Shown here: piece by piece, positions 11,543-56,141 of the stretch | Numbering within the stretch: position 1 is the first letter of the stretch | Layout: each line of letters begins with the position of its first letter | The notes under the pieces: generated by a model | The model's database searches: none | What the model saw: the letters and a program-made list of their open reading frames with translations, nothing else | What the model was told of the DNA's origin: nothing | DNA from: Limnohabitans sp. JirII-31 | Lineage (GTDB): Bacteria > Pseudomonadota > Gammaproteobacteria > Burkholderiales > Burkholderiaceae_C | Assembly (NCBI RefSeq): GCF_002778315.1 | Contig: NZ_NESA01000002.1 | Coordinates: forward strand, 124,001 to 188,000 | DNA: 64,000 nt | Direction: 5' to 3' | Translations under genes and position numbers: made by a program

Positions 11543-13132
11543 ATGAGCAAGTTCATGTCAGCCGCCGACGCGGTGGCCTTGATTCGCGACGGTGACACCG
11601 TCGGCCTGATGGGCGGTGGTGGCGGTTTGATGGAGGCCACCTGCCTGTTTGAAGCGGTGCAAGCGCGCTATCTGCAAACCCAACACCCCAAGCGCCTGAC
11701 CGTCATCCACGCCTTGGGCATTGGCGACAAACACACCAAAGGCATGAACTGCTTTGCCCACGAGGGCTTGGTCAAGCGCGTGGTGGGCGGGCACTGGGTG
11801 TGGTCACCCGCCATGCAGCAATTGGCCGAGGCCGAAAAGATCGAGGCCTACATCTTGCCCGGCGGCGTGTCGTCGCAACTCATGCGTGAGATCGGTGCCG
11901 GCCGCCCCGGCTTGTTCACCCACGTGGGTTTGGGCACCGTGTGTGACCCACGCTTGGGCGGCGGCAAGATGAACGCCAGCGCCCAGGAGGACCTGAGCGA
12001 AGTGGTGCAGATGGATGGGCGCGAGTACCTGCGCTACAAACCCTTTCCCATCCACGTGGCCCTGGTGCGCGCCAGTGCAGCCGACGAAGACGGCAACATC
12101 AGCTTCGAGCACGAGGCGGCCAACCTAGATTCGCAGTCTTTGGCCCTGGCCGCGCGCAACAGCGGTGGCAAGGTGATCGTGCAAGTCAAAGAGCGCTTGC
12201 CACGCGGCGCGCTCAAAGCGCGTGAGGTGCGCATCCCGGCCGCTTGGGTGGACGCCATCGTGGTCGACCCGGACCAGCGCACCAGCTACGGTATTCCTTT
12301 TGACCCGGCCCTCAGTGGCGAGCTGCACGGTCAGGCCCGCTTGAGCAGCGAAGCGGCCGACCAAGCCGCTGAACAAGCGCAAGCCGCCGAGCAGTTCAGC
12401 GAGCGCCAGGCCATTGCGCGCCGTGCGGCGCTGGAACTCTTCAACACCGACAAAGAACGCCCAGTGGTCAACTACGGTGTGGGCGTGCCCGACGCCGTGG
12501 CCAAGCTGCTGTCTGCACGCGGCGAGATGCACCGCATCTACCAAACCATTGAACACGGCACCTACGGCGGCACCTTGCTCGACGGCGTGCTGTTTGGCTA
12601 TGCCCGCAACGCCAGCGCCATGCTCGACGCGGCCACCCAGTTCGACTTTTACGCCGGGGGCGGTTTGGACATTGCCTTCTTGGGCTTTGGCGAGTTCGAT
12701 GCCCAGGGCAACGTCAACGTGTCGCGCTTAGGGGGCTTGACGGTGGGGCCTGGCGGCTTCATCGACATTGCGCAAAACGCGCGCAAGGTGGTGTTTTGCG
12801 GCACCTTGAGTGCCAAGGGCGTGCGCTTGCAAACCGGTGACGGCCAGATGCGTGTGGTGCAGCAAGGGGCGGTGAAAAAACTGGTGCTACAGGTGGAGCA
12901 AATCACCTTCAGCGGTGCGCAGTCTTTGCTGCGTGGGCAACAGGTCTTGTATTTGACCGAGCGTGCCAGCTTTCGTTTGACGCCGCACGGAGTGGAGCTG
13001 TTTGAAGTGGCACCCGGCATCGACGTGCAGCGCGATGTGCTGGATCAAATGGACTTTGTGCCCCAGCTCGCGTCGCCCTTGGGCGTGATGGCTGCTGAGC
13101 ACTTCTTGTCAGCCCCGTCCAGTCAAGGGTAA
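11543..13132 (+). CDS. Fused-subunit acyl-CoA transferase (propionate/acetate CoA-transferase type)
   Basis: This 529-aa protein joins the alpha and beta halves of a class I CoA transferase in one chain, as in propionate CoA-transferase and YdiF. The N-terminal half has GDTVGLMGGGGGLMEA and the C-terminal half has VVNYGVGVPDAVA. The catalytic Glu that forms the glutamyl-CoA thioester is E337 in TIEHGTYGG. It is 15 bp downstream of the acyl-CoA dehydrogenase gene and ends the operon. It probably activates the pathway acid with CoA from acetyl-CoA or succinyl-CoA; the acceptor cannot be named. Confidence 0.9.
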   Translation: MSKFMSAADAVALIRDGDTVGLMGGGGGLMEATCLFEAVQARYLQTQHPKRLTVIHALGIGDKHTKGMNCFAHEGLVKRVVGGHWVWSPAMQQLAEAEKIEAYILPGGVSSQLMREIGAGRPGLFTHVGLGTVCDPRLGGGKMNASAQEDLSEVVQMDGREYLRYKPFPIHVALVRASAADEDGNISFEHEAANLDSQSLALAARNSGGKVIVQVKERLPRGALKAREVRIPAAWVDAIVVDPDQRTSYGIPFDPALSGELHGQARLSSEAADQAAEQAQAAEQFSERQAIARRAALELFNTDKERPVVNYGVGVPDAVAKLLSARGEMHRIYQTIEHGTYGGTLLDGVLFGYARNASAMLDAATQFDFYAGGGLDIAFLGFGEFDAQGNVNVSRLGGLTVGPGGFIDIAQNARKVVFCGTLSAKGVRLQTGDGQMRVVQQGAVKKLVLQVEQITFSGAQSLLRGQQVLYLTERASFRLTPHGVELFEVAPGIDVQRDVLDQMDFVPQLASPLGVMAAEHFLSAPSSQG

Positions 13133-13154
13133 TGCAAAAGGCATCACAGAGAAC

Positions 13155-13176
13155 CAGCGGCAATAATGCGCCGCTG
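13155..13176 (+). repeat. Hairpin after the CoA-transferase gene
   Basis: CAGCGGC and GCCGCTG form a perfect 7-bp stem with an 8-nt loop, 22 bp after the CoA-transferase stop. No T-run follows, so it is not a classical intrinsic terminator. It may protect the 3' end of the mRNA or slow transcription before the next promoter. Confidence 0.4.
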
Positions 13177-13187
13177 CAAGAAGCCAT

Positions 13188-13215
13188 TAAAGCTTCCGCT
13201 ACACCGTGCCGATAC
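13188..13215 (+). promoter_or_regulatory. Sigma28-like promoter upstream of carbonic anhydrase
   Basis: TAAAGCTT-N12-GCCGATAC is close to the FliA consensus TAAAGTTT-N11-GCCGATAA, with 7 of 8 matches in each box but one extra spacer base. It lies 78 bp before the carbonic anhydrase start. The box quality is better than at several flagellar genes in this window; the spacing is the doubt. Confidence 0.5.
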
Positions 13216-13292
13216 CAGCTTACCTGCCCAAAGTGGATGCGCGCTGCGTGTTTGCGAAGGGCGCTTCATCGGATGCACCCACTCAAAAGTGA

Positions 13293-14498
13293 ATGGCTAT
13301 GAAAAAATATTTACGCTTAATGGTTGAAGTTGTCTTAGGTCTGCTGCTGGCAGGTGCCTTGGCTTTTGGTTACTGGAGCTACACCGGTAAAACCCACGCC
13401 ATGCATGAGTTGACCGATGCCAGCGAAGGCATGAGCGAAGCACAAGAAGAACTCGACAAGCTCACCAAAGAACTGGCCGAAACCAAAGAAAAGGTCGACG
13501 AGTTAGAGCCAGCAGCCAAAGAATTGGCAGCCGTCAAAGACTCGTTTGCCAACGGTGTGGTGTTGCAAGACTACGAAGCGTTCATCAAAGCTCAAAAGGG
13601 TCAAATCATCAGCGAACGCCAATTGGGCTTGGGCGCATTGCGCTTGTTGACCAAAGGTGCGCAAGATCCAGAAACCGTCAGTGCCTTCCAAAAAGCACTG
13701 GAGATGGCCGAATGGTCGTCACGCCTGAAGTCGATTTGCGCCGCGCAAAACGCCTTGGCTGCTGCGGGCCAAAAAGTCAAAGTGTTGGCTGATTGCGCCG
13801 CTGAAAAAGAAGCAGGTCACGGCAAAAAAGGTGGCCATGCCGTGCATTGGGACTATGCCGGTGAAATGGGCCCTGAAAACTGGGGTGACGAATTTCCTAC
13901 CTGTGGCAAAGGCCTCAAGCAGTCGCCGTTGAACATCACCGGTCCGTTCGAGAAATCGAAAGACACCTTGGTGGTGAACTACAAAGAGGGTCCGCTGAAA
14001 ATTTTGAACAACGGTCACACCATCCAAGTCAACGTGGAGCCAGGCAGCACCCTCAAGATCAACAAAGACGTCTACAACCTGTTGCAATTTCACTTCCATC
14101 GCCCCAGCGAAGAACAAATTGATGGCAAGCCCATGGCCATGGTGGCGCACTTTGTGCACAAAAATGCCGAAGGTAAGCTGGCTGTGTTGGGTGTGTTGCT
14201 CAACGAAGGTAAGGACAACGAGGCCATCAACGTGTTGTGGGACAACGCACCCAAGAGCGAAGGCCCTGAGGTGATGCCTGAGAAGGTCAAGTTCAACCCC
14301 ACCAGCTTGGTGCCAGCCGCCCTCACGCACTACAGCTACGAAGGCTCGCTCACCACGCCCCCATGTACCGAAGGTGTGAACTTCTACATCCTCAAAACCA
14401 CGGTGGACATCGCCAAGAAGCAAGTGGCCGACTTCCCCTTCAAGCGCAATGCACGTCCAGTGCAGCCTTTGAACGGACGCAAGATCAACGCCAACTGA
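13293..14498 (+). CDS. Membrane-anchored coiled-coil alpha-carbonic anhydrase
   Basis: This 401-aa protein has one N-terminal membrane helix (about residues 8-28), a Glu/Lys-rich coiled coil (about 38-82), a helical linker (85-170), and an alpha-carbonic anhydrase domain (about 182-400). Zinc ligands are H267, H269 (LLQFHFHRPSEE) and H286 (MVAHFVHK). C204 and C358 can form the usual disulfide, which implies a periplasmic catalytic domain. YEGSLTTPPCTEGVNFY is the family's substrate-pocket segment. The enzyme interconverts CO2 and bicarbonate. Bacterial alpha-CAs are normally about 230-250 aa with a cleaved signal; the anchor plus coiled-coil extension is unusual. The start could also be the ATG at 13299. 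A sigma28-like promoter precedes it and a terminator follows. Confidence 0.93.
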   Translation: MAMKKYLRLMVEVVLGLLLAGALAFGYWSYTGKTHAMHELTDASEGMSEAQEELDKLTKELAETKEKVDELEPAAKELAAVKDSFANGVVLQDYEAFIKAQKGQIISERQLGLGALRLLTKGAQDPETVSAFQKALEMAEWSSRLKSICAAQNALAAAGQKVKVLADCAAEKEAGHGKKGGHAVHWDYAGEMGPENWGDEFPTCGKGLKQSPLNITGPFEKSKDTLVVNYKEGPLKILNNGHTIQVNVEPGSTLKINKDVYNLLQFHFHRPSEEQIDGKPMAMVAHFVHKNAEGKLAVLGVLLNEGKDNEAINVLWDNAPKSEGPEVMPEKVKFNPTSLVPAALTHYSYEGSLTTPPCTEGVNFYILKTTVDIAKKQVADFPFKRNARPVQPLNGRKINAN

Positions 14499-14517
14499 GC
14501 CCGACGTTGCCCCTCGA

Positions 14518-14547
14518 AAAACGCCTGCTGATGCAGGCGTTTTTTTG
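14518..14547 (+). terminator. Intrinsic terminator after carbonic anhydrase gene
   Basis: ACGCCTGC-TGAT-GCAGGCGT forms a perfect 8-bp stem followed by a run of T, 20 bp after the stop codon. It isolates the carbonic anhydrase transcript from the next gene. Confidence 0.92.
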
Positions 14548-14578
14548 TTTAAGCACCGATTGCACGACTGAGTACGCG

Positions 14579-14594
14579 ATATGGCGCTCCATAT
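14579..14594. repeat. Inverted repeat upstream of TPR gene
   Basis: ATATGG-CGCT-CCATAT is a perfect 6-bp inverted repeat in the AT-rich region 30-45 bp before the TPR gene start. Its size and position suit a repressor operator or a promoter element. No regulator can be assigned. Confidence 0.35.
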
Positions 14595-14624
14595 ACTTGT
14601 ACATCCTTTGTATTATTTTTATGT

Positions 14625-16328
14625 ATGGAAAAAAGTCTTGCCTCTCAAGATGAGTCGTCTCAAAACACGGTCGTGCCAGATCTGAAAACCCGCCTGCAAC
14701 AAGCGTTTGAGCACCATCAAAGGGGACGGCTAGAGCAAGCACGTGCGGGTTATGAACAGATTCTGTTCGAGCAACCGCAGCATGCCGATGCACTTCATCT
14801 GTTGGGCGTTGTTGCCATCCAGACCCAGAATTATTCCCAAGCTGTTGAATGGATTGGCAAAGCCATCCAGGTGAATCCGAAGGCGCCAGCGTTTCATGCC
14901 AACCTCGGCTGCGCGTTGCATGAACTCAAACAGTACGAGGCGGCGGTGGCGGCCCATGACCAGGCCATTGCGCTACAGCCCGATTTTGCAGATGCCTATA
15001 CCAACCGTGGCAATGCATTTCGACAACTCAAGCAATGGCAAGCTGCGTTGGAGAGTTATGACAAGGTGCTCCACCTCAGGCCTGATCACGCGCAAGCACA
15101 TGCCAACCGTGGTGTCGCTCTGCGCAAGCTTGGGCAATGGATGGGGGCGTTGGAGAGTTATGACACTGCGATCCGTTTGGCACCCAACGAGGCGGGTGCA
15201 TACAACCGGCGTGGCAATGTGCAAAAAGATTTGATGCAACTGGAGGCTGCGCTGGCAAGCTACAACCAAGCCATCGCGTTGGATCCGAATTTCGCCAACG
15301 CCTACTTCAACAAATCGTTGCTACTTTTGTTGATGGGTGACTTTGCACAAGGTTGGCCATTGTATGAGTGGCGTTGGACGCAAGACCCGTTGCTCTCCGC
15401 CAAGCCCCGCCTTACCCAGCCGCTGTGGTTGGGTGACGTGTCGATTCAAGGCAAAACCATTTGGCTCTACGCCGAGCAAGGCTTGGGAGATACCTTGCAG
15501 TTTTGTCGTTATGTTCAGTGGGTGGCCGACTTGGGTGCGCGGGTGGTGCTGACCGTGCCACAGTCTTTGCTGGCTTTGCTGCGTGGCTTGGATGGCGTGA
15601 CCGAGCTGCACCAAGAGGGGCAGCCCTTGCCAGTGTTTGACTACCACTGCCCTTTGATGTCGCTGCCATTGGCCTTCAAGACACAGAAGGGGACCATTCC
15701 CAGCTACTCGTCGTATCTCTCGTGCGACCCGGACCTGGTGCAGCAGTGGGCACAAAAACTCGGCCCCAAAACCAAACCAAGGGTGGGCCTGGTGTGGTCC
15801 GGCAGCACGCGGCACGACGACGACCACACCCGCAGCCTGACGCTGGCGCAATTGCTGGCCTATTTGCCTGCAGACATCGACTATGTGAGCTTGCAAAAAG
15901 ACGTGAGGCACGCAGACCAAGCCACACTGCAAACCCATCCCGGCATCCGACACCTTGGCGATCAACTCGGCGACTTTGCCGATACAGCCGCTGTGTGTGC
16001 GCTGATGGATGTGGTGATCAGCGTGGACACCAGCGTCGCGCATCTGAGTGCTGCGCTGGGTCAACCCACCTGGATCTTGTTGTCGTATGTGCCCGATTGG
16101 CGCTGGTTGTTGGCGCGAGAAGACAGCCCGTGGTATCCCTCGGCCAAGCTCTACCGACAAACACAACACAGAGCCTGGGCCGAGGTGTTGACCCAGGTGA
16201 GGGCAGACCTGACCGGTCTGTTTAAATCAGCTTCAGACGCTCAGAAGAAGGCACCACACGCGTCAGACGCACGCCATAGCGGTCGTTTACCAGCACGATT
16301 TCGCCTTGGGCCACCACCGAGTTGTTGA
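14625..16328 (+). CDS. TPR protein with C-terminal glycosyltransferase-like domain
   Basis: This 567-aa protein has about six tetratricopeptide repeats (residues 20-235; repeated motifs such as AFRQLKQWQAALESYDKVLHLRPDHAQAH). A C-terminal half follows with EQGLGDTLQFCRYV (about 283-296), VGLVWSGS and a late DVVISVDTSVAHLSAALGQPTWIL, the pattern of GT9/GT41-like glycosyltransferase folds. A related protein lies at 53946-55553 inside the flagellin region, so a role in surface or flagellin glycosylation is possible. The last ~34 codons overlap fliN on the other strand by 107 bp and read as low-complexity tail. No clear Shine-Dalgarno precedes the ATG. Confidence 0.75.
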   Translation: MEKSLASQDESSQNTVVPDLKTRLQQAFEHHQRGRLEQARAGYEQILFEQPQHADALHLLGVVAIQTQNYSQAVEWIGKAIQVNPKAPAFHANLGCALHELKQYEAAVAAHDQAIALQPDFADAYTNRGNAFRQLKQWQAALESYDKVLHLRPDHAQAHANRGVALRKLGQWMGALESYDTAIRLAPNEAGAYNRRGNVQKDLMQLEAALASYNQAIALDPNFANAYFNKSLLLLLMGDFAQGWPLYEWRWTQDPLLSAKPRLTQPLWLGDVSIQGKTIWLYAEQGLGDTLQFCRYVQWVADLGARVVLTVPQSLLALLRGLDGVTELHQEGQPLPVFDYHCPLMSLPLAFKTQKGTIPSYSSYLSCDPDLVQQWAQKLGPKTKPRVGLVWSGSTRHDDDHTRSLTLAQLLAYLPADIDYVSLQKDVRHADQATLQTHPGIRHLGDQLGDFADTAAVCALMDVVISVDTSVAHLSAALGQPTWILLSYVPDWRWLLAREDSPWYPSAKLYRQTQHRAWAEVLTQVRADLTGLFKSASDAQKKAPHASDARHSGRLPARFRLGPPPSC

Positions 16329-16641
16329 CCAACAGATCGAGCGGTTCGCCCGCAATGCGGTCGAGTTCCACCACGCTGCCTTGGGTCAGGCGCATCAGGT
16401 CTTTGATCTTGATTTGCGCACGGCCGACCTCGATCGACAACGTGACCGAAATGTTTTGCAACACCTCGGGGTTGATGTTGCCGGGTGACATCGGCTTGAA
16501 GTCCTCCAGCGAGGGGTCTTCGTTGTGGCCATGTGCCGATGCGTGGTCGTCGTGCTCGTCCACGCTCACTGCGACGTGGTCGGCCTCAGCCAGGGCGGCT
16601 TCGCCGTCTTCGGCGTTAGGGTGTTCGGTTTTTTCAGTCAT
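16222..16641 (-). CDS. fliN: Flagellar motor switch protein FliN
   Basis: FliN forms the lower part of the cytoplasmic C-ring with FliM and FliG and helps dock the export ATPase complex. This 139-aa version has a long acidic/His-rich N-terminal tail (about 1-55) and the conserved SpoA domain (NISVTLSIEVGRAQIKIKDLMRLTQGSVVELDRIAGEPLDLLVNN...ARGEIVLVND-like end). The ATG at 16641 is chosen because ACAGGA sits upstream; the TTG seven codons earlier overlaps the fliM stop. It is last in fliK-fliL-fliM-fliN and overlaps the convergent TPR gene. Confidence 0.95.
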   Translation of the reverse strand: MTEKTEHPNAEDGEAALAEADHVAVSVDEHDDHASAHGHNEDPSLEDFKPMSPGNINPEVLQNISVTLSIEVGRAQIKIKDLMRLTQGSVVELDRIAGEPLDLLVNNSVVAQGEIVLVNDRYGVRLTRVVPSSERLKLI

Positions 16642-16658
16642 GGTGTGTGTCCTGTCTC

Positions 16659-17651
16659 TCAAAGTTTGCCGTGAACGTGTTCGTGGTCAATTTGCACGGC
16701 CACTTGCGAGCCACGCGTTCCCACATTCACGTGGAAGGTGGGCACGCCGTTGGCAGTCATCAGCGCGGTGTCGTCTTTCTTGAAGAACAGCAATTCGCCT
16801 TCTTGCAAGTTGTTGAGGTGTTGCAGGGTGGTTTTGATTTCACCCATGGTGACTTGCAATTCCAGGCGTGCATCGCCCACTGCCGCGGCCAGGTCTTTGC
16901 GCCATTTGCGGTCTGATTCCTCGTTGCCTTCGCCGCTTTGCACGCGGCTGCTGAGCAACTCTCGAATGGGCTTGAGCGTGGCATAGGGGTACACCAGATC
17001 GATGAAGCCTTTGCCGCCGCTCACGGTAGCGTCGGCTTCAAAGCGGCTCAACACGACCAAGTCGTTCTCGTCTGCAATTTGGGCAAACTGTGGGTTGATC
17101 TCCGAGCTCACGTGCTCACACTCGATGGGCATCAAGGGCCCCCAAGCTTCAGTCAGTGAGCGAAAGAACACTTCCAAAATGATCTTGATGATGCGTGTCT
17201 CGGTGGGTGTGAACAAACGGCCTGAAGGCAGTTCGCCCACCCCTTTGCCAAAGCCACCAAAAAAGCTGTCGAGCGAGCTAAACACCACGTTGGGGTCGAT
17301 GATGATCACCGAGTTGCCACGCAGCGGGTTCATGCGCACGATGTTCACGGACAACGGGGCTTTGAGGCCTTTGAGGTAGTCGCCGAACTTCAGAATCTGC
17401 ACCCGTGTGGGGTTCACCCGTGGGCTGGTACGCAGCACCTCCAGCAAGCCCAGACGGAACAGTCGAATGAAACGCTCATTGATCATGTCGACCGACGAAA
17501 CGTTCACTCCCAGGCTGCTGTCTTCGCTGGCCAGGTCGTGTTTGCGCACGCGCGCGCGGGTGTTAAAGCCCGTGTCGGTCTCGATCGAACCGTCGCGCAC
17601 CCCGTCAGACAGGGCGGCCAGTTCTTCTTGCGAGAGCAGGTTGGATTTCAT
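16659..17651 (-). CDS. fliM: Flagellar motor switch protein FliM
   Basis: FliM (330 aa) is the middle C-ring protein and the receptor for CheY-P. The N-terminal LLSQEELAALSDGV matches the CheY-binding EIDALL-type peptide. The central domain carries the conserved GDYLKGLKAPLSVNIVRMNPLRGNSVIIIDPNVVFSSLDSFFGG, and the C-terminal SpoA-like part (DARLELQVTMGEIKTTLQHLNNLQEGELL) pairs with FliN. Length is typical. It lies 9 bp after fliL and is followed closely by fliN. Confidence 0.97.
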   Translation of the reverse strand: MKSNLLSQEELAALSDGVRDGSIETDTGFNTRARVRKHDLASEDSSLGVNVSSVDMINERFIRLFRLGLLEVLRTSPRVNPTRVQILKFGDYLKGLKAPLSVNIVRMNPLRGNSVIIIDPNVVFSSLDSFFGGFGKGVGELPSGRLFTPTETRIIKIILEVFFRSLTEAWGPLMPIECEHVSSEINPQFAQIADENDLVVLSRFEADATVSGGKGFIDLVYPYATLKPIRELLSSRVQSGEGNEESDRKWRKDLAAAVGDARLELQVTMGEIKTTLQHLNNLQEGELLFFKKDDTALMTANGVPTFHVNVGTRGSQVAVQIDHEHVHGKL

Positions 17652-17660
17652 GGGCTTGGC

Positions 17661-18251
17661 TTACTGCATCACAAACGAGGTGAAAAACACATCTTCAATG
17701 CCACCGAAGTCTTCGTACTTCATCAGCATTTCATTCATCACCACTTTGATCTTGGCCGCCAACTCGGTGCGGAAGTCAGGCCTGGCCGTGTCGGCCTCGG
17801 TCGACTGACGCATCACATCCAGAATGGCTGAACGGATGGCGAACTCATGCTTTTTGACGTTGTCAAACACGCGTGCGTCGTAGTGGGTCATCACAGCAAT
17901 CTGCACCACCATCACCTTTTTGCTGCTGGTGATGTTGGTCATGAACTCTTTGTCGATCTGAAGGTAAGTGTTCTCAAAGCGCGTGGCTTCGGCTTCTTTC
18001 TTCACCTTCGATGGACCTTCGGGCATGGCGTGTGCGTCTTCTGCGGCTTTGTCGAGCTCGTCAATCTTCTCGTGCGCGGCGGCTTCGCTCTTGTGTGCGA
18101 AATAGCCTGACATGAAAAGTGTGCCGAACACCACCGAGACAATCAAAAGAATCACCGACAAAGCGATCACGGCGATCAGAAGAATCGGCTTCTTCTTTTT
18201 GGGTGCGCCTTCGACTTCTTCGGTGCTGGGGGCTGCTGCTGCTTCTGCCAT
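17661..18251 (-). CDS. fliL: Flagellar basal-body-associated protein FliL
   Basis: FliL (196 aa) surrounds the stator in the inner membrane and supports torque. It has a short cytoplasmic tail ending in KKKK, one membrane helix (about 22-52, ILLIAVIALSVILLIVSVVFGTLFMSGYF), a charged linker, and a stomatin-like periplasmic domain with the C-terminal DVFFTSFVMQ signature. It sits between fliK and fliM in the usual order. Confidence 0.95.
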   Translation of the reverse strand: MAEAAAAPSTEEVEGAPKKKKPILLIAVIALSVILLIVSVVFGTLFMSGYFAHKSEAAAHEKIDELDKAAEDAHAMPEGPSKVKKEAEATRFENTYLQIDKEFMTNITSSKKVMVVQIAVMTHYDARVFDNVKKHEFAIRSAILDVMRQSTEADTARPDFRTELAAKIKVVMNEMLMKYEDFGGIEDVFFTSFVMQ

Positions 18252-18289: not shown

Positions 18290-20131
18290 TTATGCATAGA
18301 GGTCAAGCAAGGACGCATTGGCCTTGGTGGACACAGCCTCAGCGCTGGTGACGCTGCTGCTGCTCTTGACTTGCGAGGGTGAATTTTCGCCAGGTTGAGA
18401 CTGCTTTGCAGAGCCTCTCGATGGGTTTTGCTGTGTGCCACGGCTGTCTTGGCCGATGTGGAATTGACCCGCATGAATGCCAAAGTTTTCAAGTGCATCG
18501 CGCAAACGCTGACTGCTGTTTTGCAACAAGTCACGCGTGAGTGGGTTGTCGGCATGAATCACGGCATCGAGCTTGCCATCTTTCATTTCAAGCTGAATTT
18601 CAACGCCGCCCAAGTTGGCAGGACGCAAACCAAACTTCATCTTCCATTCGCCGTCGCTGAGTTGCTTGTGCATGCGTGCGGCCATCTCGGTGGCCATCTT
18701 GTCGCTGAGCTGGTCATAGACCTCGCTCATGTGCACATCCGATGCCGCATGCGTGCTGCTGACGATGCTCGTGTTGGTTGGCACAACTTGGCGTGACATG
18801 GCTTGGCCAAATTGGCCCGCGCTGGCGTCACCGCTGGAGGCTTGTTGTTGCCCGGCGTCTTCGCCTGCAGTCCCTGGCTCAAAGCTGGCAGCCAATGCGG
18901 TGATGTCTTGTTCGTTCACACCAGAGCCCATCAACGACAACACCGCAGCGGTGCTGGGCGTGCTGCTGATGGCCGAGGTCAGTGCCACAGCGGGTGGCAA
19001 GACGGTGATTTGAATGTGTTGAATGCTGGCCAGGTCGCTCGGCGTCAAGCCTTGCAACGCGGCCCCCACGGTGGTGGGGGGTGTGGATGTGGCGGTAGGT
19101 GTGACCGTCGTGGCGGCCATGTTGTTCACCACGATCGTTTGTGTCAGATCAGCGTTGGGGCCTGGGGCCGCCAGCGCGGCGATGTTGACGTGGATGTTGC
19201 CATTGTCATTGGCTTGAATCGCGACGTTGAGCAAAGGCGACGCCAGTTTGTCGGCCAGCTGAGCGGATGGATTGTTCAGCGACACCGTCAGTTCAGACAC
19301 GGTATCCGTTGTGCTGGGTGTGGTCGCGCCAGGCTGCACATCGGCGCTGGTGGACACAGGGCCCATCAGCTTTTGAATGGCGGCTTCGTCCAGGCCCATG
19401 GACTTGGCAAAGGCCGTCAAGCTTTCAGGGCTGGGTGCTTGGCGTGGGTCGGTGATGATGCGCATGTGGGGACTCAACGCCACGGTGCGCAACGGTGTGG
19501 CCGTGGCTGCATCGCTGCTGGGCAAGGCCACGTCTTTCAAATAAGGGTTGGCTTGCAGCGCTTGAGGGCGAACTTCTGCCGTGCCTGGTGTGGGCAAGGG
19601 CGCCGCCGCGAGCACCGTGACTGGGGTGTCGGAGGACACCACGCTGGGGAGGGGACTGGCACTGCTGGCACTGATGGCGTCGGTGGCCACGCTGTTTTCT
19701 GGGCTGGCTTTGTGCGGTGCCCGTTTGCTGGTGTGTGTCTGGCCTGACGCATCGTTGGCGTTGGACGAGTACTCGTCGGCGCGTGCCTGGCTGTTGCGCG
19801 TGTCAGATCCTTCATCACTGTTTGCGGCATCGAGTGCCTGCCGATGGGCTGTTTGCTGGCTCTTGTCATCGGCTTGCGCTTGGGCATTGGCACGTGTGGT
19901 GCGTGTGTTGTCCGTCGCAGGTGATGGGGAGGGAGAAGGAGCGGCAAAAACTTGCCGCTGTGACGATGGCATGCGTTCGAATTGCCGCGCCATGATTTTG
20001 GCGAAGTCCAGCCCCAGGCTGGCACCCGCAGCAAGGCCCACCCCTGCCGCAGCCCCTGCGGGCAGGGCGGTGCTGGGTGTTGGTGACACCGACGGAGCCG
20101 GTGGCATTTGAAGGTAACTGGACAAGTTCAT
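18290..20131 (-). CDS. fliK: Flagellar hook-length control protein FliK
   Basis: This 613-aa protein is low complexity (Ala, Ser, Thr, Pro) for its first ~470 residues, as expected of the secreted molecular ruler. It then has the conserved globular C-terminal domain (GEWKMKFGLRPANLGGVEIQLEMKDGKLDAVIHADN...LRDALENFGI, about 490-560), which switches FlhB export specificity. FliK length varies widely; this is on the long side, which could fit the very large hook subunit in this window. It opens the fliKLMN operon, divergent from flhA, with a sigma54-like site 32 bp upstream. Confidence 0.93.
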   Translation of the reverse strand: MNLSSYLQMPPAPSVSPTPSTALPAGAAAGVGLAAGASLGLDFAKIMARQFERMPSSQRQVFAAPSPSPSPATDNTRTTRANAQAQADDKSQQTAHRQALDAANSDEGSDTRNSQARADEYSSNANDASGQTHTSKRAPHKASPENSVATDAISASSASPLPSVVSSDTPVTVLAAAPLPTPGTAEVRPQALQANPYLKDVALPSSDAATATPLRTVALSPHMRIITDPRQAPSPESLTAFAKSMGLDEAAIQKLMGPVSTSADVQPGATTPSTTDTVSELTVSLNNPSAQLADKLASPLLNVAIQANDNGNIHVNIAALAAPGPNADLTQTIVVNNMAATTVTPTATSTPPTTVGAALQGLTPSDLASIQHIQITVLPPAVALTSAISSTPSTAAVLSLMGSGVNEQDITALAASFEPGTAGEDAGQQQASSGDASAGQFGQAMSRQVVPTNTSIVSSTHAASDVHMSEVYDQLSDKMATEMAARMHKQLSDGEWKMKFGLRPANLGGVEIQLEMKDGKLDAVIHADNPLTRDLLQNSSQRLRDALENFGIHAGQFHIGQDSRGTQQNPSRGSAKQSQPGENSPSQVKSSSSVTSAEAVSTKANASLLDLYA

Positions 20132-20162: not shown

Positions 20163-20178
20163 AGCAAAAACCGTGACA
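20163..20178 (-). promoter_or_regulatory. Sigma54-like promoter for fliKLMN
   Basis: The minus strand reads TGTCACG-GTTT-TTGCT. The -12 box and spacing fit the sigma54 consensus TGGCACG-N4-TTGCW, but the second G of the -24 GG is T, which usually weakens binding. It is 32 bp upstream of fliK and back to back with the stronger flhA site. Confidence 0.5.
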
Positions 20179-20229
20179 GGTCAGTTCTTGCCGTTTCTCA
20201 TGTGGTTTGCTCACCATGTCAGTTTGGGC

Positions 20230-20245
20230 TGGCACATCGATTGCT
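20230..20245 (+). promoter_or_regulatory. Sigma54 promoter for the flhA operon
   Basis: TGGCACA-TCGA-TTGCT is an essentially perfect -24/-12 element with 12 bp from GG to GC. It lies 75 bp before the flhA ATG, leaving a normal leader. Confidence 0.85.
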
Positions 20246-20319
20246 TGAGGTACTTGCCGAGGAAATCATTTCCCGACAAAAAGAAACCTAAACGTTCCAC
20301 TTTCAACTGGATTTCACTG

Positions 20320-22416
20320 ATGAGCACGCTCACTCTGTCAACGATTCGACAGAACTTGTCAAAGTTTGACCTCAACGGACTAAGTATTCCGGTGGTCGTG
20401 CTCGTCATCATGGCGATGTTGGTGTTGCCACTGCCCCCGCTGTTGTTGGACTTTTTGTTTACTTTCAACATCATGTGCAGCTTGGTGGTCATCATGATCG
20501 CCATCGGTACCCGCAAACCGCTGGAGTTCTCTTCTTTCCCCACTGTGCTGTTGTTTGCCACCATGCTGCGCTTGGCGCTGAACGTGGCATCGACCCGCGT
20601 GATCTTGGTCCATGGCCACGAAGGCGCGCATGCTGCTGGCAAAGTGGTGGCGGCGTTTGGTGAGTTTGTGATTGCCGGTAACTATGTGGTGGGCTTCATC
20701 ATCTTTGCGATTTTGATGATCATCAACTTCGTGGTGGTGACCAAAGGTGCGGGCCGTGTCTCTGAAGTGAACGCGCGTTTCACCTTGGACGCCATGCCTG
20801 GCAAACAAATGTCCATCGACGCCGACTTGAACGCTGGCGTGATTGACCAAGAGACGGCCAAGAAGCGTCGCGCTGAGTTGGCCCAAGAGTCTGACTTCTT
20901 CGGCTCGATGGACGGTGCTTCCAAATTTGTCAGTGGCGACGCCATGGCCGGTTTGTTGATTCTGCTGATCAACTTGGTCGGTGGCTTGATCATCGGTGTG
21001 GCGCAACACGACTTGCCCGTGGGCGAAGCCGGCAAGCTCTACACCTTGTTGACCATTGGTGATGGTTTGGTGGCACAAATTCCATCGTTGCTGTTGTCCT
21101 TGGCCACTGCCATCGTGGTGACCCGTGTGACCACCGCCGAATCTATTTCAGAGCAGGCCTCTAGCCAATTGGCCAACCCGACCGCGCTGTTTATTTCTGC
21201 TGCCATTTTGGTGGTGTTGGGCATGGTGCCTGGCATGCCTCACCTGATGTTCATCACCCTGGCCGTGGCTTCAGCCGGCTTGGCGCTGATGATCGTGACC
21301 CGCGAAGTGCAAGACGAGCAAGCCGTGCAAGCCGTCAAAGATGCCGCGCCTGTGGAAGCCCCCAAAGAGCTTGACTGGGACGATGTGGACCAGGTCGATT
21401 TGATCGGTTTGGAAATTGGCTATGGCTTGATTCCTTTGGTCAACGCCGACACCGGTGGCGAGTTGATGAACCGCGTCAAAGGCGTGCGCAAAAAGCTCTC
21501 CGCTGAACTGGGCTTTTTGGTGCAGCCCGTGCGCATTCGCGATGACCTCAACATCGATCCCGACGCCTACAACATCGTGCTCAAAGGCGTGGTGCGCGGC
21601 AAAGGTGAAGTCAAAGTGGGCCGTGAATTGGCCATCAACCCCGGTCATGTGTACGGTCAACTCGAAGGCATTGCCACCCGCGAACCCGCTTTCGGTTTGG
21701 AAGCGGTGTGGATTGAACCCTCACAACGCGACCAAGCGCGCACACTGGGCTACACCGTGGTGGATGCGGCGACTGCCATTTCGACCCACCTCAACAAAGT
21801 GCTGCGTGAAAACGCCTCTGAAATGTTGAGCCATGACGAAACCCAACAACTGCTCGACAAACTGGCCGCCAAGTCGCCCAAGATTGTGGAAGACCTGGTG
21901 CCTGGCAAGTTGTCATTGGGCATCTTGACCCGCACCTTGCAAAACCTGTTGGCCGAGTCGGTGTCGATTCGCGACATGCGCACCATCGCCGAAGCTTTGA
22001 CCGAGGCCAGCACACGCACCCAAGACCCCGAACAACTCACCGCCATGGTCCGTCCCAAGCTGGGCCGCATGATCATGCAAAGCCTGGTCGACAGCGACAG
22101 TGGTTTGCAAGTCATGACCTTGGAGCCTTCGTTGGAGCAGCTCTTGCACAACGTGTTGCAACAAAGCCAACCTGGCCAACCCGTGGTGATGGAGCCTGGT
22201 TTGGCAGAAAACTTATTTGCCGGTTTGCGCGATGGCGCCCGCACTGTGGAAGACATGGGCCACCCCGCCGTGCTGGTGGTCTCGCCTGTGATCCGTGGCT
22301 GGTTGTCCAAAGCGGCACGCTTTCGGGTGAACGACTTGACAGTGCTGTCTTACAGCGAAATCCCAGATGACCAGGCTGTCAAAGTGATCCACACCGTGGA
22401 CGCCAAAGCCCGATAA
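20320..22416 (+). CDS. flhA: Flagellar export gate protein FlhA
   Basis: FlhA (698 aa) is the large inner-membrane component of the flagellar type III export gate and couples proton flow to export. The N-terminal half has about eight membrane helices (from VVVLVIMAMLVLPLPPLLLDFLF to the conserved FVVVTKGAGRVSEVNARFTLDAMPGKQMSIDADLNAG loop). The C-terminal cytosolic domain (from about 340) docks chaperone-substrate complexes. The ATG at 20320 (MSTLTLSTIRQNL) is chosen because the upstream in-frame stretch contains the sigma54 promoter and lacks family similarity. It begins flhA-flhF-flhG-fliA. Confidence 0.97.
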   Translation: MSTLTLSTIRQNLSKFDLNGLSIPVVVLVIMAMLVLPLPPLLLDFLFTFNIMCSLVVIMIAIGTRKPLEFSSFPTVLLFATMLRLALNVASTRVILVHGHEGAHAAGKVVAAFGEFVIAGNYVVGFIIFAILMIINFVVVTKGAGRVSEVNARFTLDAMPGKQMSIDADLNAGVIDQETAKKRRAELAQESDFFGSMDGASKFVSGDAMAGLLILLINLVGGLIIGVAQHDLPVGEAGKLYTLLTIGDGLVAQIPSLLLSLATAIVVTRVTTAESISEQASSQLANPTALFISAAILVVLGMVPGMPHLMFITLAVASAGLALMIVTREVQDEQAVQAVKDAAPVEAPKELDWDDVDQVDLIGLEIGYGLIPLVNADTGGELMNRVKGVRKKLSAELGFLVQPVRIRDDLNIDPDAYNIVLKGVVRGKGEVKVGRELAINPGHVYGQLEGIATREPAFGLEAVWIEPSQRDQARTLGYTVVDAATAISTHLNKVLRENASEMLSHDETQQLLDKLAAKSPKIVEDLVPGKLSLGILTRTLQNLLAESVSIRDMRTIAEALTEASTRTQDPEQLTAMVRPKLGRMIMQSLVDSDSGLQVMTLEPSLEQLLHNVLQQSQPGQPVVMEPGLAENLFAGLRDGARTVEDMGHPAVLVVSPVIRGWLSKAARFRVNDLTVLSYSEIPDDQAVKVIHTVDAKAR

Positions 22417-23862: not shown

Positions 23863-24682
23863 ACCTCGCAAAACAGAAGTCATTGGCATCGCCAGTGGCA
23901 AAGGCGGCGTGGGTAAAACCACCACCTCCATCAACCTCGCGGTGGCTTTGAGTCAGATGGGACACAAGGTCATGCTATTTGACGCTGACCTCGGTTTGGC
24001 CAATGCCCAAATTGCTTTGGGTGCGCGCGCCGAATACAACCTGGGTCACTTCTTGGCAGGACAAAAGAGCCTCAACGAGATCATGGTCACCACACGCCAA
24101 GGCATCCGCTTGATTCCGGGTGCATCGGGCATGCAAGAGTTGGCCGCCTTGAGCCAGCTGCAAGCGGCCAGCATCGTGCAGTCGTTCAGCGTGTTGGCTG
24201 ACGATGTGGACTACTTGATCGTTGACGTCGCAGCCGGCATCTCGCCTTCGGTGTTGTCGTTCTTGGCGGCCTGCCAGCGTCGCTTCATCGTGGTCAAAGA
24301 CGACCCTTCCTCCATTGCAGATGCTTACGGCACCATCAAAATTTTGACCAAAGAGATGGAACTCAACGAGATCTATCTGTTGCCCAACATGGTTCACAGC
24401 CAATCCGATGGCTGGAAGCTGTACAAAAAACTCAACGACGTGTGCGTGCGTTTCTTGGGGGAGCCCGTGCATTACCTGACCTCGATCGAAGAGGATGAAA
24501 TGGTGTTGCGTGCCCTCAAAAAATACCAGTCAGTGCTTGAACTCGCGCCTGGCAGCGGGGCCGCACGCGATTACCGCCGCTTGGCCGAAGCCTGCACACA
24601 GCTGCGTCCCTTGGGCCACCTGCGCGGTGGAATGCAATTTTTCATGGAGCGACTGATTCAAACCAGTCCGTCAGACACATGA
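23855..24682 (+). CDS. flhG: MinD-like ATPase FlhG (FleN), flagellar number regulator
   Basis: This 275-aa ParA/MinD-type ATPase limits flagellar number and in other species stimulates FlhF and restrains FleQ. The deviant Walker A motif GKGGVGKTT starts at residue 15, DADLGLANAQ follows, and the switch region is DYLIVDVAAGISPSVL. Homologues often carry an N-terminal DQAxxLR activator helix before this; the present protein begins only 14 residues upstream and lacks it. A C-terminal amphipathic stretch (GGMQFFMERLI) may bind membrane. It overlaps flhF by 8 bp and fliA by 4 bp. Confidence 0.95.
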   Translation: MNKPRKTEVIGIASGKGGVGKTTTSINLAVALSQMGHKVMLFDADLGLANAQIALGARAEYNLGHFLAGQKSLNEIMVTTRQGIRLIPGASGMQELAALSQLQAASIVQSFSVLADDVDYLIVDVAAGISPSVLSFLAACQRRFIVVKDDPSSIADAYGTIKILTKEMELNEIYLLPNMVHSQSDGWKLYKKLNDVCVRFLGEPVHYLTSIEEDEMVLRALKKYQSVLELAPGSGAARDYRRLAEACTQLRPLGHLRGGMQFFMERLIQTSPSDT

Positions 24683-25434
24683 AAGCCATGTCACCCGTTC
24701 AAATGTACGAATCCTGCAAGCCCAAGGGCGAGGATTTGGTCATGGCCCATCTGGGCTTGGTCAAGCGTGTGGCGCTGCACCTCAAAGCACGCATTCCCGC
24801 CTTCATGGAGCTTGATGAGTTGATCCAGGTCGGCATGATTGGTTTGCTCGAAGCCTCGCGTGCGTTTGACCCCGTCAAAGGCGTGGAGTTTGAAAACTTC
24901 GCCCACAGCCGTGTGCGCGGTGCCATGCTCGACGAGGTGCGTCGCCTGTCGTTTTTGCCTCGCTCAGCGGTGGCGTTCAACAAATCGCACAACGAAACCA
25001 TCCACACCTTGGCGGCTGAGTTGGGGCGCACGCCCACCCAAGCCGAAATTGCCGATTACATGGGCAAAGATTTAGAGGATTTCCACAAAGAGCGGGGCAA
25101 GGCCAAGCGCTTTGAGACTTACTCGATGGAAGTGGTCACTGAAGAGGTCATGAGCATTGCCGACGATGCATCGCAACAGCCTGATGTGATTGTGGAAGAA
25201 GCCCAGTTCATGGATGCGGTGACCGATGCGATTGCACAGTTGCCCGAACGCGAGCAACTGGTTATGCAGCTTTACTACGTGGAAGAGTTCAACCTGAAAG
25301 AGATTGGTGAGACCCTGGGGGTGAGTGAATCGCGGGTGAGCCAAATTCTGTCCTCGGTGGTCAAGAAACTCCGTGGCACCTTGAAAGTGGACGGGGGGGA
25401 GACGGATACACCCGCCATGAGGAGACGTGCATGA
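24679..25434 (+). CDS. fliA: RNA polymerase sigma factor FliA (sigma28)
   Basis: FliA (251 aa) directs RNA polymerase to late flagellar promoters. Region 2 (HLGLVKRVALHLKARIPAFMELDELIQVGMIGLLEASRAFDPVKGVEFENFAHSRVRGAMLDEVR), region 3 (LAAELGRTPTQAEIADYMG) and region 4 (LPEREQLVMQLYYVEEFNLKEIGETLGVSESRVSQILSSVVKKLR) are complete. Its anti-sigma factor FlgM is at 33951-34271, and candidate target promoters lie throughout the window. It is coupled by ATGA overlaps to both flhG and the downstream unknown gene. Confidence 0.97.
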   Translation: MKAMSPVQMYESCKPKGEDLVMAHLGLVKRVALHLKARIPAFMELDELIQVGMIGLLEASRAFDPVKGVEFENFAHSRVRGAMLDEVRRLSFLPRSAVAFNKSHNETIHTLAAELGRTPTQAEIADYMGKDLEDFHKERGKAKRFETYSMEVVTEEVMSIADDASQQPDVIVEEAQFMDAVTDAIAQLPEREQLVMQLYYVEEFNLKEIGETLGVSESRVSQILSSVVKKLRGTLKVDGGETDTPAMRRRA

Positions 25435-26254: not shown

Positions 26255-26281
26255 TCAAGTTTGGCGTGTCGCTACCGATAC
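26255..26281 (+). promoter_or_regulatory. Sigma28 promoter for fliS
   Basis: TCAAGTTT-N11-ACCGATAC matches the FliA consensus at 7 of 8 (-35) and 6 of 8 (-10) with the exact spacing. It lies 37 bp before the fliS start. Confidence 0.8.
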
Positions 26282-26318: not shown

Positions 26319-26741
26319 ATGCGAGCCAACCAACGAGCCATCCAAAGTTACGGCGATGTCAAAGTCACCAGTGGCGTGTCCTCGGCCAACAATGTGCAAT
26401 TGATTCAAATGCTGTTTGATGGACTGCTCGAAAGCCTGGTGGCTGCACGGGGTCACATCCAACACAAAAATATCACCGAAAAATCCAAAGCCATTGCACG
26501 TGCCAGCCGCATCGTGATTGGTTTGCAAGGTGCTTTGGATTTCGAAAAAGGCGGCGATCTGGCCAACAACCTCAACGAGTTGTACAGCTACGTGACCCGC
26601 CGTTTGTTTCATGTCAACGCCCAAAACGACGTGCTTGTTTTGGACGAGATCCATGGTTTGATGCGCGAGATTCGCGATGCCTGGGAAGGCGTGCCCGCCT
26701 TGGTTCCCGCGACTGCCCGACCTGCTAGTTTCATGAATTGA
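26319..26741 (+). CDS. fliS: Flagellin export chaperone FliS
   Basis: FliS (140 aa) binds the C-terminus of unpolymerised flagellin in the cytoplasm and delivers it to FlhA. The conserved pattern is clear: RAIQSYGDVKVTSGVSSANNVQLIQMLFDGLLESLVAARGHI, KSKAIARASRIVIGLQGALDFEKGGDLANNLNELYSYVTRRLF and a final helical pair. A good Shine-Dalgarno (CAGGAG) precedes the ATG. It is separated from its usual partner fliD, which is 24 kb away here. Confidence 0.95.
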   Translation: MRANQRAIQSYGDVKVTSGVSSANNVQLIQMLFDGLLESLVAARGHIQHKNITEKSKAIARASRIVIGLQGALDFEKGGDLANNLNELYSYVTRRLFHVNAQNDVLVLDEIHGLMREIRDAWEGVPALVPATARPASFMN

Positions 26742-50294: not shown

Positions 50295-50321
50295 TCAAGA
50301 AAACGTGTATTCAACCGATTG
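50295..50321 (+). promoter_or_regulatory. Sigma28-like promoter directly at fliD
   Basis: TCAAGAAA-N11-ACCGATTG has exact spacing and a good -10 box (5 of 8 with the CCGAT core). The -35 box keeps only TNAAG. The fliD ATG lies 8 bases after the -10 box, so the transcript would be almost leaderless. Confidence 0.5.
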
Positions 50322-53945: not shown

Positions 53946-55553
53946 ATGTCCAAGCCTCAACTTCACCATCTGTTTCTCAAGGCAGAAAAAGCCAGAAAAT
54001 CTGCCAACTTTGCCGAATGTAAACGTTTGTGTGAAGCGATATTGCGCATCAACAAAGACGAGATGGGGGCGGTTGAAACCTTGGCACTGTGCGCCCTAGA
54101 AACCAAGCACTTTGCTCAAGCCTATGACGCTGCGCGAAAACTCACCGAGGCGGAGCCTCTCAATGTCAACGGTGCCATGATTGCCTCTGTGGCATTGATG
54201 AACACCAGTCAAGACGAGTTGGCAGTTCACCTGCTCGAAGACCAAATCAGTCGTACTCCCGATGTACCCGCGCTTTTTTTCAACTTGCATTCGGCCTACG
54301 CTGCTTTAGGCTTGAACCAAAAAGCGCTTGAGGTGGCGATGAAGGCCATTCAGTTGGTGCCCACCAATGCAGACGCGTACAACAACTTGGGTGCGAGTTT
54401 GCACGCCTGTGCCCGCCAGTCCGATGCCGTGATTGCTTTTCAAACCGCGGTTGACCTGAACCCCAAGCACTACACCGCCCGATTGAATTTGGCCAATGCG
54501 ATTTCGGGGGATGATGAAAAAATCGTCAGTGAAATCGAGTACGTGGTGCGTGAGGCCAAAGGTGTTTTGAGCGAGCGAGCTTTGGTAGGTGCTTTGCACA
54601 ACACCGCTTTTCCGTATCTTCGACTTGGAAATTTAGAAAAAGGCTGGGAGAGACTTGAATATGGTTTTAGTCCTCTGATTGACTCCAACCGAGGTCGCCG
54701 CCCGCAACGCACGTTCAAAGAACCTCGCTGGACGGGGGAGCCCTTACACGGCAAAACGCTGCTGGTTTGGCGCGAGCAAGGTTTGGGAGACGAAATCATG
54801 TTTGCTTCCATGCTGGATGAATTACGCGCCTTGGACGGCAAGGTGATTGTTGAGTGTGAGCCTCGTTTGGTGTCGGTGTTTCAACGCTCGTTCCCTGAGT
54901 TTGAAGTACGGGCAGAAATTTACCGCGCTATTTTTCCGTTTGACAGCCCAAACAAAGACTTCAACGTACAAATTCCACTGGGTAGTTTGGCGGCTTTGTA
55001 TCGCCGAAAAATTGAAGATTTTGAGCGTTCAAAACCTTATTGGTTGCCTGAGCCTGTCAAGCAAGCAGACTACGCGCAGCGCTTGCAAGAAGCATGTGGC
55101 AGCAAACTGCGTGTGGGTCTGTGCTGGCGCAGTGCCGTGGTGTCACCTACCCGAAGCACCTCTTACACCATGCTGTCTGATTGGGCTGACCTGTTGAGGC
55201 GAGATGACGTGTGTGTGGTCAACTTGCAATATGGTCCGTGCGAAGAAGAGTTGCAACAAGTCGAAGCTGAACTGGGTTGCAAAGTTATTCGTTGGCCAGA
55301 CACCGATTTGCAAAGAGACTTAGAAGCCGTGGCCGCCATCATTGCCAATTTGGATGTGGTGTGTTCTGTGGGAACTGCGGTGGCTCAAATCAGCGGCGCG
55401 GTGGGAACCAAAACCTTGCTGTGTGCAGACTCTTACAACTGGACCTCTTTTGGCACTCAGGGCTACCCATTTCAACCGAGCATGCAATTGGTGGTGGGTG
55501 ACGAGAAAAGTAGTATGAAATCTGCTGTCGACAAGTCCATCCGAAATATTTAA
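53946..55553 (+). CDS. TPR protein with glycosyltransferase-like domain, flagellin glycosylation candidate
   Basis: This 535-aa protein has TPR-like repeats (about 5-180; KARKSANFAECKRLCEAILRINKDEMGAVETLALCALE, LNQKALEVAMKAIQLVPTNADAYNNLGASLHACARQSDAVIAFQTAVDLNPKHYTA) and a C-terminal half with WREQGLGDEIMFASML, VGLCWRSAVVSP and DVVCSVGTAVAQISGAVGTKTLLC. This layout matches the protein at 14625-16328 and resembles GT41/GT9-like transferases. Located between a flagellin and flaG, and near a complete pseudaminic acid pathway, it may move the sugar onto flagellin; this is inference. Codon use is a little more AT-rich than in the neighbours. The ATG touches the fliC1 terminator and has no Shine-Dalgarno. 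Confidence 0.72.
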   Translation: MSKPQLHHLFLKAEKARKSANFAECKRLCEAILRINKDEMGAVETLALCALETKHFAQAYDAARKLTEAEPLNVNGAMIASVALMNTSQDELAVHLLEDQISRTPDVPALFFNLHSAYAALGLNQKALEVAMKAIQLVPTNADAYNNLGASLHACARQSDAVIAFQTAVDLNPKHYTARLNLANAISGDDEKIVSEIEYVVREAKGVLSERALVGALHNTAFPYLRLGNLEKGWERLEYGFSPLIDSNRGRRPQRTFKEPRWTGEPLHGKTLLVWREQGLGDEIMFASMLDELRALDGKVIVECEPRLVSVFQRSFPEFEVRAEIYRAIFPFDSPNKDFNVQIPLGSLAALYRRKIEDFERSKPYWLPEPVKQADYAQRLQEACGSKLRVGLCWRSAVVSPTRSTSYTMLSDWADLLRRDDVCVVNLQYGPCEEELQQVEAELGCKVIRWPDTDLQRDLEAVAAIIANLDVVCSVGTAVAQISGAVGTKTLLCADSYNWTSFGTQGYPFQPSMQLVVGDEKSSMKSAVDKSIRNI

Positions 55554-55562
55554 TTTTTTCGC

Positions 55563-55589
55563 TCAAGTTCTTGGATTGAACGCCGATGC
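55563..55589 (+). promoter_or_regulatory. Sigma28 promoter for flaG
   Basis: TCAAGTTC-N11-GCCGATGC matches the FliA consensus at 6 of 8 in each box with exact spacing, 52 bp before flaG. This is one of the best FliA sites in the window. Confidence 0.82.
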
Positions 55590-56114: not shown

Positions 56115-56141
56115 TAAAGTAAGCCCAACACAGTCCGAATC
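56115..56141 (+). promoter_or_regulatory. Sigma28 promoter for fliC2
   Basis: TAAAGTAA-N11-TCCGAATC has a perfect TAAAGT, exact spacing and a CCGA core in the -10 box. It lies 53 bp before fliC2, immediately after the tandem terminators. Confidence 0.72.

Follow-up and report, generated by a model that had tools for sequence, protein, structure and literature searches.

Alpha-carbonic anhydrases (CAs) and FliA (sigma28) regulons are each known, and no report was found of their union, as suggested here by sequence comparison. The bacterial alpha-CAs of solved structure include those of Neisseria gonorrhoeae (1KOQ/1KOP), Thiomicrospira crunogena (4XZ5) and Persephonella marina (6IM0), and we know of no FliA control for any of them. 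The gene considered here lies in a stretch of 64,000 nt from Limnohabitans sp. JirII-31 (contig NZ_NESA01000002.1, positions 124,001 to 188,000 of the forward strand), hereafter the window, and its product shares the catalytic fold of these enzymes, with identities of 38-44% in the thirteen best Foldseek matches to CA structures. In contrast, the chains of the solved enzymes match its CA domain only, and not its helix, coiled coil or helical domain. On the regulatory side, the closest described systems are the FliA class 3 genes (fliC, fliD, fliS), as the CA gene carries the same type of box pair as the late genes of the window, near the Escherichia coli consensus; it differs from them in that its product is a metabolic enzyme and in the 12-nt spacer of its fliN-linked group. 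Regarding the shape of the protein, FliL and MotB, single-pass proteins around the stator, likewise have a single N-terminal helix and a periplasmic bulk, which for the CA is predicted only. A periplasmic coiled coil followed by TPR-like helices is found in YbgF/CpoB, and the TPR domain of YbgF was among the weak structural matches, with E-values >1 and query-normalised TM-scores of about 0.3 that give no evidence of homology. Moreover, the human CA IX and CA XII form 'transport metabolons', in which a tethered CA with an outward catalytic domain accelerates the movement of protons next to a transporter that uses them; however, these enzymes are eukaryotic and have a C-terminal anchor, and the likeness is one of analogy only.

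In a full-text literature search (titles and abstract openings, with few subscription papers), no description of a flagella-regulated bacterial CA was found. Two papers name a CA gene, with the FliA link absent from the parts examined (PMC4855414 and PMC5357869), and a CA is present in the RpoH table of another (PMC5493296). In the Bordetella values taken from PMC1965479, BB1478 stood at +4.05 and fliA at -16.05, so these values indicate no co-regulation. A motility match for 'can' of Vibrio fischeri was rejected, the phenotype as tabulated being a growth defect (PMC3948606). The locus suggests an apparently unrecorded connection of swimming with CO2 chemistry, in Limnohabitans-like bacteria of freshwater and in many of their relatives, and would make a metabolic enzyme a candidate member of the flagellar regulon in one group of lake bacteria.

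The carbonic anhydrase and its N-terminal part

The longest open reading frame spans 13293-14498 on the forward strand (401 aa). Among the 74 genus orthologues, an ATG was present at the position of 13299 in 72 and at that of 13293 in 23, so the true start is most likely the conserved ATG at 13299, giving a gene of 13299-14498 and a protein of 399 aa. The start conservation was not taken from the protein set, where the start codon is the one nearest to the expected place and is written as M. Behind the gene, a terminator-like hairpin followed by a T run (AACGCCTGC-TGAT-GCAGGCGTT, 14517-14546, forward strand) was noticed by eye and is absent from the terminator-scan list.

The catalytic domain occupies residues 184-397 (13848-14489, forward strand), as indicated by Pfam, residue alignment, Foldseek and sequence matches. 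The PF00194 match covered residues 193-400 of the 401-aa frame (E 7.4e-39, 134.3 bits against a cut-off of 27), and the best Foldseek match of the CA domain, to 4XZ5, had an E-value of 4.1e-23. In the 399-aa numbering, the zinc ligands are H265, H267 and H284, the proton-shuttle residue is H240, and E271 and T352/T353 complete the active site; their catalytic roles and their equivalents in hCAII are presumably those of H94, H96, H119, H64, E106 and T199/T200, respectively. With zinc histidines, shuttle histidine, gate glutamate and threonine all in place, the alpha-CA with an intact zinc site proposed by the first-pass annotation was confirmed. Among 83 aligned proteins, the equivalents of H94, H119 and H64 were each kept in 82, and those of H96 and E106 in all 83; the T199 equivalent was serine in five of the 83, and one truncated row lacked both T199 and T200. 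The gene product is predicted to be an active alpha-CA with its catalytic residues intact. A separate beta-CA is encoded elsewhere in the genome, so the cytoplasmic needs for bicarbonate may not require the alpha-CA.

The N-terminal part comprises a positively charged N-terminus with a hydrophobic helix (residues 1-26, 13299-13376), a coiled coil (residues 30-83, 13386-13547) and a four-helix, weakly TPR-like domain (residues 87-155, 13557-13763), all on the forward strand. In the AlphaFold2 models, built with a 38-sequence alignment, these appeared as one long helix at residues 2-83 and four helices at 87-155, with the CA domain behind a flexible linker; the mean pLDDT was 74-75, and values were <50 at residues 34-45 and 168-185 of the full model. 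The hydropathy of residues 30-83, averaged over homologues, scored 56 at a period of 3.5 residues, compared to 19 for the runner-up of 3.6 among the six periods tried, and such a heptad periodicity is characteristic of coiled coils. For the helical domain, Foldseek gave only weak TPR-like matches (best E 0.3), and the N-terminal part gave weak coiled-coil-type matches at most against Pfam. The near-invariant Glu10 (codon 10, 13326-13328) lies inside the predicted membrane helix and was kept in 78 of 80 cases. An A-x-A/G motif near residues 22-24 leaves signal cleavage possible, but the conservation of Glu10 and the unbroken predicted helix at 2-83 favour an anchor. Therefore, of the membrane helix and long coiled coil that had been proposed in place of a cleaved signal, the coiled coil held, while the anchor is favoured next to a cleavage site that is still possible. 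The N-terminal helix probably anchors the CA of the Limnohabitans group in the inner membrane.

As the helix, the coiled coil and the TPR-like domain resemble parts of scaffolds, the product might also have a structural role, in the flagellum or in association with the stator; the CA domain would then serve as a scaffold and catalysis would be unimportant. One copy agrees with this, that of G165 (L067, 421-1665), where Q, K and R stand at the equivalents of H94, H119 and H64, so that two zinc ligands and the shuttle histidine were lost and the helix and coiled coil retained; it is probably not a working CA, and it has no box upstream, yet its genome has FlhA. Nevertheless, the catalytic residues were kept in 82 of the 83 aligned proteins, and the boxed CAs of other genera differ in the N-terminus, which leaves a mere scaffold quite improbable.

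Sigma28-like boxes and the flagellar neighbourhood

A -35-type box (TAAAGCTT, 13188-13195) and a -10-type box (GCCGATAC, 13208-13215) of a sigma28/FliA-like promoter lie upstream of the gene on the forward strand. Each of them matches the E. coli consensus, given as TAAAGTTT-n11-GCCGATAA in PMC2859248, at 7 of 8 positions, but the spacer between them is 12 nt long instead of the canonical 11. The ATG at 13293 lies 78 bp downstream of the pair; thus, the matches and the distance previously described for this promoter were reproduced. Within the window, the pattern T[AC]AA[GT]...NCCGA[TA] with an 11-nt spacer occurred five times, namely upstream of fliS (start at 26319; TCAAGTTT-N11-ACCGATAC, 26255-26281), of fliD (50329; 50295-50321), of a flaG-like gene with matches below curated cut-offs (55642; TCAAGTTC-N11-GCCGATGC, 55563-55589) and of a flagellin gene (56195; 56115-56141), these four on the forward strand, while the fifth lies within a flagellin gene. 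For a spacer of 12 nt the count was likewise five, the CA site and four on the other strand. Furthermore, an inverted repeat (CAGCGGC-aataatgc-GCCGCTG, 13155-13176), terminator-like on the reverse strand, separates the promoter from the upstream gene; similar repeats were observed upstream of flagellin genes and in many fliN-convergent relatives.

The promoter statistics of a single genome were unconvincing, as TAAA-N14-17-GCCGATA had four matches in this genome against three for the reversed pattern; therefore, only conservation would exclude chance, and a comparison between genomes was used instead. No sigma70-like site was found in 12900-16800, yet only 1.4 would be expected there, so this result gives no support for FliA control.

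The flagellar locus begins just downstream, as the first-pass annotation had stated. The CA gene is followed by fliN, its neighbour in the genus (16222-16662, TIGR02480 over cut-off), fliM (16659-17651, TIGR01397 over cut-off), fliL (17661-18251, PF03748) and fliK (18290-20131, PF02120), all four on the reverse strand, and then by flhA (20173-22416, forward strand, TIGR01398 over cut-off, start codon uncertain), this linkage being kept in the genus where contigs show it. The gene of sigma28 itself, fliA, is found at 24679-25434 (forward strand, NF005413 and TIGR02479 over cut-off). In the 51 rows where the piece includes fliN, the alignment ends of CA and fliN lay 10 to 2103 nt apart, and both orientations occurred. 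As 19 of the 33 convergent relatives have a gap of ≤152 nt, the gene of a TPR protein that separates CA and fliN in the window (14625-16328) looks like a recent insertion; it has a weak glycosyltransferase-9-like stretch and shares 16222-16328 with the end of fliN. Another TPR protein is encoded between flagellin genes (53946-55553).

In the genus survey, the protein was found in 78 of 84 genomes. The upstream set had 84 rows, of which two (G009 and G035) were dropped as the gene start was missing at the contig edge, and the 82 usable rows minus eight second copies or sequences of other genera gave the 74 genus orthologues. Using the strict pattern T[AC]AA[GT]-N14/15-NCCGA[TA], boxes were detected in 32 of 32 genes convergent with fliN, in 7 of 8 lying >300 nt behind it and in 24 of 24 without fliN on the fetched piece, including the window's own gene, for which the piece was short. 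Overall, 63 of the 64 orthologues not directly behind fliN were boxed, compared with none of the 10 that share its direction and start 41-177 nt after it (Fisher test, 1.5e-11, relatedness ignored), these genomes being related and the counts not independent events. The only unboxed gene of the 64, in G010, reads TTAAGGTT-N12-TCCGATTC by eye. The spacer was 12 nt long in all 63 boxed orthologues, with a varying sequence, while the box columns of the box-anchored alignment are invariant by construction of the pattern. Moreover, at least 12 of 16 matches were present in 30 of the 32 real sequences of the convergent set, compared to 1.1% of dinucleotide shuffles, and in a clade of five the box occurs at -49 with unrelated DNA upstream, against about -105 elsewhere. 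The simplest reading of the loss of the box directly behind fliN is that the gene can ride the fli transcript there, as a CA gene inside a fliKLMN transcript would need no FliA promoter of its own.

Alternatively, the gene might encode an ordinary periplasmic CA, with boxes that arose by chance or belong to another regulator. Both the pattern being no rarer than its reversed control in one genome and the non-canonical 12-nt spacer are in line with this; however, the conservation of the boxes, their loss directly behind fliN, and their presence in separate CA groups but in none of 14 short CAs (see below) make it very unlikely. Judged from these upstream sequences, the alpha-CA is very probably a member of the FliA (late flagellar) regulon. 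The promoter very probably works like a FliA promoter, with a spacer of 12 nt and not 11 that leaves membership of the regulon putative.

Relatives beyond the genus and the presence of flagella

At least three further genera of the family (g75, g78 and g83) have the full architecture as well, and so do records titled Comamonadaceae, Rhodoferax sp. and Limnohabitans sp. Rim11. In the cultured Limnohabitans Jir61, the fliN-linked gene and its box are found on contig L135. A record titled Bordetella parapertussis (L150) encodes a protein 62% identical to that of the window, adjoining fliN, and its title is probably a misassigned MAG label. Among 77 usable coiled-coil loci, 34 formed a set without matches to FliN, FlhA or two other reported neighbours, from which nine orthologues of the fliN-linked group had been removed by hand; three loci at edges (L164, L166 and L203) were left out. 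The genomes of the coiled-coil loci overlap those of the genus survey. On the examined pieces around these 34 copies, neither FliN nor FlhA was matched. The same architecture was found in other genomes, with a linkage to fliN that holds in the genus and not around these copies. The strict box was present in 18 of the 34 and the relaxed one in 26 (relaxed shuffle rate of 1.3%), being missing in eight, and the spacing was 11 nt in the boxed copies listed.

Regarding other alpha-CAs of the family, 38 of 66 loci, taken from the top of a ranked list and not at random, carried the strict box, compared to 0.15% of shuffles, and 28 did not; other spacings were found in 0, 2, 0 and 0 of the same 66. 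The surroundings of 20 family CA genes contained about 0.012 box matches per kb, from which about 0.3 would be expected. The relaxed box was present in 48 of 52 long forms and in none of the 14 short forms, a division drawn from the protein tree but after the boxes were known. The spacers of the 38 boxed CAs were 11 nt long in 26 and 12 nt in 12, and their alternation within the long group is the best argument for one sigma factor reading both. Furthermore, among 28 top-ranked CAs of the order outside the family (again from the top of a ranked list, of 30 CAs), the strict box was found in 14, belonging to six families, compared to 0.7% of shuffles. The boxes of the unlinked copies and of the longer alpha-CAs in family and order are of the form TCAAG-N14/15-CCGA, at frequencies that greatly exceed chance. 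In the CA-domain tree, which omits G235, the coiled-coil group formed one branch of 31 rows (SH-aLRT 99), all 38 boxed CAs fell within a group of 51 rows with a moderate support of 85, and the 14 short CAs were placed on two other branches. The alpha-CAs of other genera had been tried as signal-peptide negative controls and failed, with boxes in 9 of 19 (score ≥11), and were replaced by the short CAs defined by the tree.

The coiled-coil branch includes two rows with a different N-terminus (G054b and G031b). Second CA copies (L068, L069 and L070, in G054, G031 and G051, respectively) have the same CA domain and a different N-terminus, lipoprotein-like in G054, and their best upstream boxes are 11-nt spaced and fail the strict pattern. 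When 20 loci of other-genus CAs were compared with the proteins of the window to look for flagellar linkage, a single weak match was obtained, to a protein near its 3' end. The neighbours of some unlinked and other-genus CAs included the OMP decarboxylase family, MFS transporters, NnrU and a sensor kinase, and four had no Pfam match.

As alpha-CAs of other genera with signal-peptide-like N-termini have the same type of promoter, a coiled-coil anchor had to be abandoned as the general basis of the flagellar link, and the phenomenon is, by its promoters, broader than the coiled-coil architecture. We conclude from these sequence comparisons that many Burkholderiales have a putative FliA-regulon alpha-CA, whose form in the Limnohabitans group is linked to fliN and probably tethered to the membrane.

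The presence of the CA tracks that of flagella, with exceptions. A hand count of the 67 genus genomes with a completeness of ≥80% gave 61 with both CA and FlhA, one with CA only (G068), one with FlhA only (G017) and four with neither (G018, G029, G061 and G063), where any FlhA match with an E-value of 0.001 or better was accepted, fragments included, and the match of G029 was reclassified as SctV (Fisher test, 3e-5). This SctV (L128, 1501-3537) belongs to a type III secretion system in a genome without CA and flagellar FlhA. FlhA was thus missing in four of five CA-less genomes and in one of 62 CA-bearing ones, and homologues widespread in non-motile relatives, proposed as an argument against the flagellar link, were not observed in the genus. 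In G068 (96% complete), CA and box were kept, and neither FlhA nor FliA was found over cut-off. Two genomes (G037 and G053) had two FlhA genes each over cut-off, which could reflect a pair of flagellar systems or a mixed assembly. In the family, FliA was found over cut-off in 64 of 66 genomes bearing the top-ranked CAs, compared to 10 of 20 CA-less ones (Fisher test, 2.7e-6), the latter being the first 20 of 199 and including G118, with a split FliA match below cut-off; relatedness and genome size were uncontrolled in all these counts. The two CA-bearing genomes without FliA over cut-off (G096 and G276) had unboxed CAs. Since half of these CA-less genomes have FliA, motility needs no CA, and the presence in all flagellated relatives expected of an integral motor component was not found in the family.

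Possible roles in swimming cells

In the proposed mechanism, FliA would read the 12-nt-spaced promoter and the CA would be made together with the late flagellar proteins. The N-terminal helix would stay as an anchor in the inner membrane, with the catalytic domain facing the periplasm on its flexible linker, and the coiled coil would hold the CA as an oligomer. In swimming cells, the enzyme would then speed the periplasmic reaction CO2 + H2O <-> HCO3- + H+, so that in freshwater of low buffering capacity the CO2/bicarbonate pair might both deliver and buffer the protons that the MotAB stators take up. We are evenly divided on this reading as a whole, that is, an alpha-CA of a FliA-class regulon, tethered in the Limnohabitans group, which supplies or buffers the protons of the motor. 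Taken separately, a role of the CA in the proton supply of the motor is put forward tentatively from these sequence data. Somewhat more doubtful is the broadest version, in which a dedicated periplasmic alpha-CA would feed and buffer the H+-driven motor throughout the Burkholderiales as a 'proton metabolon', with a coiled-coil oligomer beside the stators in the Limnohabitans group.

The main rival to proton or pH support of the motor, our leading guess, keeps the regulon and changes the job to the sensing of CO2, bicarbonate or pH, or to the capture of inorganic carbon by motile cells, and we consider it possible at a similarly low level of confidence. According to this rival, the CA would equilibrate periplasmic CO2 and bicarbonate so that chemoreceptors or bicarbonate uptake meet defined species, a version that we hold to be no more probable. 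FliA regulons typically include chemotaxis receptors, the forms with signal-peptide-like N-termini share the promoter type, which fits a role across the periplasm, and neither FliN nor FlhA was found near the unlinked copies. In contrast, the orthologues of the genus have remained close to fliN, which is a motor switch gene, whichever way they are oriented, and bulk equilibration needs no anchor and no coiled coil.

Returning to the support of the motor by protons, if FliA drives a periplasmic CA, the way in which H+-driven motors are supplied with protons in weakly buffered freshwater of pH 8 could be tested directly, and if the broad version were true, cells swimming in poorly buffered water would have CO2 as their proton reservoir. 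The MotA found is of the TIGR03818 MotA1 type, which we take to be the proton type. In a rough calculation with assumed constants, which ignores other periplasmic buffers and proves nothing, the diffusion limit of free protons at pH 8 to a sink of 1-5 nm was about 350-1760 per second, below the assumed demand of roughly 5000 protons per stator per second at 100 revolutions per second. For a volume the size of the periplasm, the hydration of CO2 yielded about 3-33 per second when uncatalysed and 10,000-100,000 with 200 CA copies, again with assumed constants; as the catalysed rate exceeds the demand, which diffusion falls short of, catalysed proton delivery would be physically plausible.
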